From Brachyspira innocens ATCC 29796 (GTDB lineage: Bacteria > Spirochaetota > Brachyspiria > Brachyspirales > Brachyspiraceae): a stretch of 64,000 nucleotides of DNA. Every line of letters begins with the position of its first letter. Within the stretch, counting starts at the first letter, position 1. The translations under genes were made by a program, and so were the position numbers. Below the pieces are notes generated by a model. That model was given only the letters and a program-made list of their open reading frames with translations. It searched no databases and was not told the origin of the DNA. Of the stretch, positions 18,363 to 18,820 are shown piece after piece. The stretch covers positions 1 through 64,000 of the forward strand of contig NZ_ARQI01000121.1 of the NCBI RefSeq assembly GCF_000384655.1, in the 5' to 3' direction.

Positions 18363-18820
18363 TAGACTTGTTTCAAAACTACTTGACAACATTAAATATA
18401 AAATTATTTAATTTTTTAAATTAAAAACATAATGTTTTACATGTTGTATAAACTATCGTTTGGTATATAAACATGCAGTCTTTTTGCTTCTTTGGGTCAC
18501 CAAAAGAAGTGGGGTCTGGGGCAAAGCCCCAGTTATAAAAATAAAAATACAAAAATTGAAATAGTATAAATATTTCTTAATTGAGTTTTGAAACAAGTCT
18601 ATTTAAGCTAGAAAATGCAGTTCTTTTGGTTCTCGCCAAAGGCGGGCTGTGCCTTATACCACACCGAAGGCGGACAGCGTCACAAAAGAACTGGGGTTAC
18701 CGAAGGTACGCAGAGCGGGCACGCTGTGTACTTCGTAAGGGCAAAGCCCCAACTATAATGAAAAATATTAAATAAAAATTTATGAATATTAACAAATTTA
18801 GTTTTGAAACAAATCTAATA
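18360..18820. mobile_element. Family A MITE-like element with internal terminal repeat
   Basis: Outer ends: GACTTGTTTCAAAACT at 18365-18380 and the inverse AGTTTTGAAACAAATC at 18800-18815, flanked on both sides by TAATA, a likely 5-bp target duplication. A third, perfect inverted end (AGTTTTGAAACAAGTCTATT) sits inside at 18584-18603. Two hairpin cores are carried: 18475-18535 (CTTCTTTGGGTCACCAAAAG) and 18610-18760 (AGTTCTTTTGG..CAAAAGAACT with a long GC-rich tip), each followed by GGGGCAAAGCCCC or GGCAAAGCCCC. No transposase gene. It abuts the stop of the ATPase gene. Confidence 0.85.

Follow-up and report, generated by a model that had tools for sequence, protein, structure and literature searches.

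Our analysis concerns the 64,000-nucleotide stretch of Brachyspira innocens ATCC 29796 DNA that begins above (contig NZ_ARQI01000121.1, positions 1 to 64,000; hereafter the window) and a hairpin-bearing repeat of about 60 nucleotides (nt) within it, the core. In Brachyspira, about 100 short mobile elements without coding sequence, belonging to two unrelated kinds, were found to carry this same hairpin module. The core is cargo of miniature inverted-repeat transposable elements (MITEs), spread by two transposition systems that have nearly vanished and reshuffled among the elements by recombination. The two families, their ends, their parents, the hybrids between them, the borders of the core, its covariation and its bias in position and strand are all matters of observation. 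The fuller account, in which the cargo is dispersed and recombined by two nearly extinct insertion sequence (IS) families and its fold is under constraint, probably at the level of RNA in 3' regions, is the one that we hold to be probable, with some reserve.

The core has the consensus TGCAGT-Y-CTTTTG-S-TTCTTT-tip-AAAAGAA-S-TGGGG-GGGGCAAAGCCCC, with a variant ending in GGGGGCTAGTCCCC, and can also be written as TGCAGTYCTTTTG-S-TTCTTT..tip..AAAAGAA-S-TGGGG followed by hairpin 3. The initial annotation had placed it at about ten positions in the window. When the copies were read directly and oriented, nine of the ten were found to hold the core, near 10785(-), 15226(-), 18475(+), 18610(+), 23185(-), 30270(+), 34100(+), 38203(-) and 57625(+), and the tenth, 33965, was found to be hairpin 1 (GTTCTTTTTCCCGCC...AAAAGAAC), which lies close to the A-type left end of the element that also holds the 34100 core. 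The copies and their carriers, with A and B denoting the two classes of element end described below, are as follows.

18363 to 18601, plus strand: family B MITE, B ends on both sides, short-tip core (scored ends; target-site duplication TAATA).
18474 to 18535, plus strand: core of this first B element, composed of hairpin 2 (CTTCTTTGG-GTCA-CCAAAAGAAG) and hairpin 3 (TCTGGGGCAAAGCCCCAGT), with the top model score of the genome, 91.4 bits.
18602 to 18817, plus strand: second, tandem B copy, with its left end in common with the first and its B right end at 18800-18817; its core (18616-18757) has long GC-rich tips, and the covariance-model match spans 18616-18714.
10726 to 11081, minus strand: family A element with A3/A1 ends and a degenerate long-tip core at 10780-10903 (scored ends, sequence), which falls under the model threshold because its 5' arm is rearranged.
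15170 to 15396, minus strand: family A element with its core at 15222-15284 (model match, scored ends).
23134 to 23409, minus strand: family A element with a long-tip core at 23185-23287 (model match, scored ends).
30147 to 30399, plus strand: family B element with its core at 30277-30352, stem GTTCTTTTAT/ATAAAAGAAC (G-C flip, AT tip) and flanks TAATA/TAATA (model match, scored ends).
33928 to 34262, plus strand: family A element with hairpin 1 at about 33960-34003 and the core in 34128-34210 (model match, scored ends).
38149 to 38406, minus strand: family A element, one end degenerate, with its core at 38200-38261 (model match, scored ends).
9275 to 9437, no strand assigned: family A element with A2/A3 ends, in which hairpin 3 alone survives, as a remnant (GGCAAAGCCCC) (sequence, scored ends).
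57627 to 57688, plus strand: lone core without A or B ends, surrounded by TAGTTAA...TTAACTA arms between divergent genes (end scoring, comparison with relatives).

The annotated picture of constant stem flanks around a variable tip has held, since the tips differ among copies (GGGTCACC, GTGCCAAC, TTATACCAAT, or long chains of GC-rich mini-palindromes) and the stems are either constant or altered on both sides. In the long-tip cores (10780-10903, 18616-18757 and others), the recurring GC-rich mini-palindromes at the hairpin loops are GCCGAAGGC, TACTTCGTA, ACGCAGAGCG, GCACGACTGTGTGC and TATCC...GGATA. At 9250-9301 and 11055-11106, two A ends stand head to head across a common TATATA, as if an A element had inserted precisely at the TATA end of another.

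A covariance model of the core, proposed as a check by the initial annotation, was built from 43 copies. Run over the 3.28-Mb genome, it gave 96 matches (E<=0.01), a lower bound as long-tip copies score low. Matches were found in 23 of the 26 Brachyspira genomes (this one and 22 others) and in none of the remaining three, and only two marginal single matches were seen among 172 other Spirochaetota genomes. Exact 29-mers of the core were found in Brachyspira (36 stretches on named contigs), and no second genus in the collection gave one. These counts go far beyond chance. No match to the 18360-18600 element was obtained in the plasmid and phage collections, and a phage or plasmid origin is rejected on that basis. 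Rfam scans gave no family over the gathering threshold at the element (sub-threshold chance matches), the only Rfam family of the window being 16S rRNA, and a known RNA family is thereby ruled out as the identity of the core. In a search of the openly licensed literature, no description of the repeats was found. The G+C content of the window is 27.8%, and the relative genomes G113 and G083 are close to it, with 93-97% identity at most shared blocks.

The ends of the elements fall into two classes and both families have terminal inverted repeats. A ends (TATAC...TTTGTCAA) are 27 bp long, occur in three subtypes and, as a sequence pattern, read outward as promoter-like TTGACA-N17-TATA; B ends read TAGACTTGTTTCAAAA. 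Among 94 placed copies in the genome, 34 were A/A, 32 B/B and 11 hybrid, and 17 had one or no recognisable end. The A/A and B/B elements are non-coding, have paired ends and are mostly 200-450 bp long, as expected of bacterial MITEs. For family B, the target-site duplication and the unoccupied site expected of such elements were also found. The duplication is a 5-bp TAWTA, whose middle base matches in 25 of 31 flank pairs as against 15.8 after shuffling (p=0.0002). For the 18363-18601 element (pair 18365-18815), G113 has the uninterrupted site GATAATATTTTATG where the window reads GATAATA|GACTTG, which gives the duplication TAATA. The flanks of A are always TATA, so that target duplication is inseparable from target preference; at the 23.1-kb A element, G065 lacks the insertion, but its spacer holds other sequence and is no clean empty site.

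Both families share their ends with autonomous insertion sequences. In G083, a disrupted IS630-type DDE_3 transposase lies between an A1 left and an A3 right end spanning 1,056 bp (PF13358 at 40.5 bits, over the cut-off; NF033545, IS630, as a partial match under its cut-off on a 55-amino-acid piece). A DDE_3 transposase between TA-flanked ends is what defines the IS630 family, and the parent of A is assigned there. For family B, decayed remnants of a DDE_Tnp_1 transposase, probably of IS5 type, in G098 and G103 terminate precisely in the B right end, the only end of this parent that was observed (PF01609 over the cut-off; NF033581, IS5, at E=7.5e-28 on an incomplete 191-amino-acid piece, under the full-length cut-off). 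A and B are therefore of unrelated insertion-sequence origin. An IS1182-type parent is ruled out, as PF13751 was found in 0 of 26 genomes. In a search limited to PF13358, PF01609 and PF13751, recognisable transposases of the first two families were found in few Brachyspira genomes and not in the present one. This scarcity agrees with a published description of B. hyodysenteriae WA1 as a strain without insertion sequences (PMC2650404).

What A and B have in common is the core itself, as identity between the families is at background directly upstream of TGCAG and directly downstream of hairpin 3. The B/B-ended elements that were fetched separately all contained cores or remnants (long-tipped or degraded), and the core is therefore integral to family B rather than an occasional insert. 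Hybrids that pair an A end with a B end indicate that halves were swapped at or near the core. None of the parent remnants of IS630 and IS5 type in G083, G098 and G103 carries a core. The core had been annotated as lying in the ends of both families and once alone, and this is correct: both families carry it, and the copy at 57627 has neither end. The accompanying view that transposon ends do not explain the core needs to be divided, since mobility does explain the dispersal, through terminal inverted repeats and degenerate parents in relatives, and leaves the compensatory changes and the sharing by two families unexplained.

The 60 nt of the lone core are identical in G123 and G022 (compare loci L055 of B. 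hampsonii and L054 of B. alvinipulli) while the flanks are 96% and 87% identical, for which P=0.0003 in the most distant genome given the flank identity. In G113, G083, G065, G118, G103 and others the same spacer has a hairpin-1 structure without the core, and in G072 it has the core in the opposite direction. The spacer (57510-57823 and the orthologous spacers L181-L198) shows three alternative hairpin structures in one genus, with a conserved right flank (TATTATATAATAAAATCGCTTATTATTCAAG). That relatives hold another hairpin or an inverted core here would suit a third, independently moving small hairpin element which enters MITEs and host palindromes, as would the sharp borders of the core in several contexts and six copies without an A or B end, at least two of them (57627 and C72:7609) between inverted local arms. 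No clean site lacking the core alone was found, however, every complete B element that was looked at retains it at least as a remnant, and lone copies can be MITEs that have lost their ends. We also know of no protein that mobilises the core. Such a third mobile unit is considered improbable.

Across the 43 sequences, hairpin 2 (C/G-TTC-TTT-GG/GT/AT, a four-base loop RNCA, then the complement) is 100% paired, with three pairs altered on both sides (CG/GC; GC/AU/UA; GC/UA) and none on one side only. The covariation score of the whole structure lies above all 500 shuffles and all slid versions. In hairpin 1 of the A elements, CTTTTT-CCCGCCGC-AAAAAG is kept while the outer triplets switch together (CAA/TTG, GTT/AAC, GTA/TAC), and 96% of positions are paired. 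Hairpin 3 keeps GGGG/CCCC and varies its outer pairs (TA, CG, GC, AT); G.T is common there and A.C is rare, with G.T plus T.G against A.C plus C.A at 10:3 among distinct variants and a much larger excess over all copies. This excess points to RNA in the direction of the core, with the caution that the copies are related. Covarying base pairs, as expected of a structured RNA, are thus present in hairpins 1, 2 and 3. The initial annotation had offered an absence of stem covariation, with copies that are simple clonal duplicates, as the outcome that would speak against it; the opposite was observed, and the two-sided stem changes in three hairpins rule out clonal duplication with random mutation. 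The joint change of the hairpin arms suggests that the fold is kept for a reason not yet described. The compensatory changes fit selection on the fold but fall short of proof, as one arm of a palindrome can correct the other.

Position and strand were assessed with gene orientations based on simple open-frame gene calls. No long open reading frame (ORF) contains an element. Spacers between convergent genes are favoured, with convergent and divergent spacers at 47:24 for elements versus 16:33 among core-free spacers (p=0.0004). In co-directional spacers, the sense to antisense ratio is 30:11 in this genome and 38:23 in other species, and the pooled 68:34 (p=0.001) provides the strand bias that had been proposed for testing, at a moderate strength. 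Of the two options originally offered, a structured RNA or a protein-recognised hairpin, the structure is borne out by covariation in three hairpins, and RNA is favoured by this strand bias and by the prevalence of G.U over A.C.

The preference for 3' regions, together with the -10-like AGTATATAAATA that stands directly ahead of TGCAG in B elements, would also be expected if the core served host genes as a regulated leader RNA or as a terminator of transcription. An intrinsic terminator is not what was found: past hairpin 3 the sense strand is A-rich and without a U-run, and on the opposite strand hairpin 2 is followed by GCAAAAGGACTGCATTTTT rather than by an immediate U-run. Since the neighbouring genes also differ from copy to copy and no Rfam family reaches its threshold, this role is very improbable indeed.

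Another reading is that a protein of transposition or recombination recognises the hairpin in its DNA form, as a cruciform or a single strand, with the stems aiding mobilisation and the core acting as exchange point. This is in keeping with a core common to two families with different transposases and with hybrids joined at it. Synteny breaks relative to G113 or G083 were likewise found at 9 of the 11 spacers that hold an element and at 7 of 18 that do not (p=0.03), but the sample is small, the breaks were scored by hand and spacer length is a confounder. For IS630 and IS5 transposases, the established substrates are the terminal repeats, and neither parent remnant has the core. Moreover, G.T and A.C would be expected equally in a DNA structure. 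We therefore regard recognition as DNA as quite unlikely.

Several observations weigh against the fuller account favoured here. The parent transposases are remnants in relatives only, with none in this genome. Many of the G.U cells trace to a few ancestral copies, and the folds of long-tip copies are often no more stable than those of shuffled sequences (z +0.5 and -0.7). The sense bias is weak in other species taken alone (p=0.07), and in this genome it comes from B and hybrid elements, the A/A elements showing only 7:5, so that it could reflect promoter direction in the B left arm. In near-perfect palindromes, compensatory changes can also come from template switching without selection. The last point leads to the possibility that the core is selfish MITE filler without function, whose stems stay paired as the single-stranded hairpins serve as templates for their own correction in replication or transposition, and whose spread across families is homologous recombination between repeats. 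Hairpins 1 and 2 do change as complete two-sided swaps with almost no intermediates, as expected of template switching; the tips gain GC-rich mini-palindromes freely, A/B hybrids exist, and the long-tip copies are not unusually stable. However, filler does not predict the G.T excess over A.C, the sense bias, or the 60-nt identity at the lone site across three genomes with flanks at 87-96% (P=0.0003). We give it a minor but real chance.

In the account that we prefer, two non-autonomous families would have spread via unrelated transposases, A by one of IS630 type and B by one of IS5 type. The core, with its sharp borders from TGCAG to the end of hairpin 3, would have passed between them by recombination at the core, a process that would still be yielding A/B hybrids; the route by which A and B first acquired it is one that we infer. 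The elements would persist mostly at gene 3' ends, where harm is small, and the core would most likely be transcribed there by read-through, mostly in sense. Its two stable hairpins may then act on the transcript, by 3'-end protection or attenuation, which would keep the stems paired. A bolder version would make the core a discrete structured RNA module, conserved throughout Brachyspira, which MITEs of two unrelated transposon families carry and exchange (and which at times persists without either) for an RNA-level effect on host transcripts. It can be put forward only tentatively and seems rather unlikely.

Three other features of the window were noted. At 46107-52682, three neighbouring ORFs consist of 75-nt (25-amino-acid) repeats, one of them matching DUF285 (PF03382, E=1e-170), a family known from descriptions of Mycoplasma proteins; in G113 the sequences on either side of this block are contiguous, and the block itself is located elsewhere. 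At 5277-8611 there are three adjacent minus-strand ORFs, two of which have common repeated segments spaced about 1,413-1,434 nt (tandem paralogues); the one ORF scanned gave no Pfam match. Two 96-nt repeats at 34531-34924 are 298 nt apart and 77% alike. The second falls at the 3' end of a minus-strand gene of PepSY-like type (34830-35474), which suggests that the end of this gene was duplicated.

Our study indicates that Brachyspira has many MITEs with fossil parents of IS630 and IS5 type, which add hairpins and promoter-like ends to spacers. These elements often coincide with the rearrangements for which Brachyspira genomes are known, and in B. pilosicoli rearrangements have been linked to mobile elements (PMC3532143). 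A module common to two unrelated MITE families offers a natural test of cargo as filler against cargo as functional RNA.

In comparison with known systems, family A resembles other IS630-family MITEs in its TA-type ends of about 27 bp, common to a parent of about 1.05 kb with a DDE_3 transposase, whereas its parent is represented by one decayed copy in a relative and its core is foreign to that parent. Family B resembles IS5-family MITEs in a short terminal inverted repeat, GACTTGTTTCAAAAC, common to an IS5-type transposase remnant, and in a short target duplication; it differs in the 5-bp TAWTA duplication and in its core, which is foreign here too and is the one found in family A. Hairpins of the REP/REPIN type, with their RAYT transposases, are likewise dispersed and intergenic, whereas the Brachyspira hairpins sit within terminal-inverted-repeat elements with target duplications. 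The Correia elements (NEMIS) of Neisseria are also TA-flanked MITEs with outward promoter-like end boxes, here TTGACA-N17-TATA in the A ends. They belong to another genus and have another sequence, and we know of no Correia internal core common to a second MITE family. Correia elements form folded RNA when transcribed (compare PMC3049150), and together with the modular BOX repeats (PMC3049150) they are the closest precedents. By description rather than by sequence, the BOX/RUP repeats of Streptococcus pneumoniae are alike in being intergenic, modular and MITE-like, with strong predicted RNA folds, variable internal hairpins and many copies (PMC3049150). Their variable unit is a tandem boxB within one family (PMC3049150), whereas in Brachyspira one module is found in two families of unrelated ends and parents, and it is the tips that vary, not the number of units.
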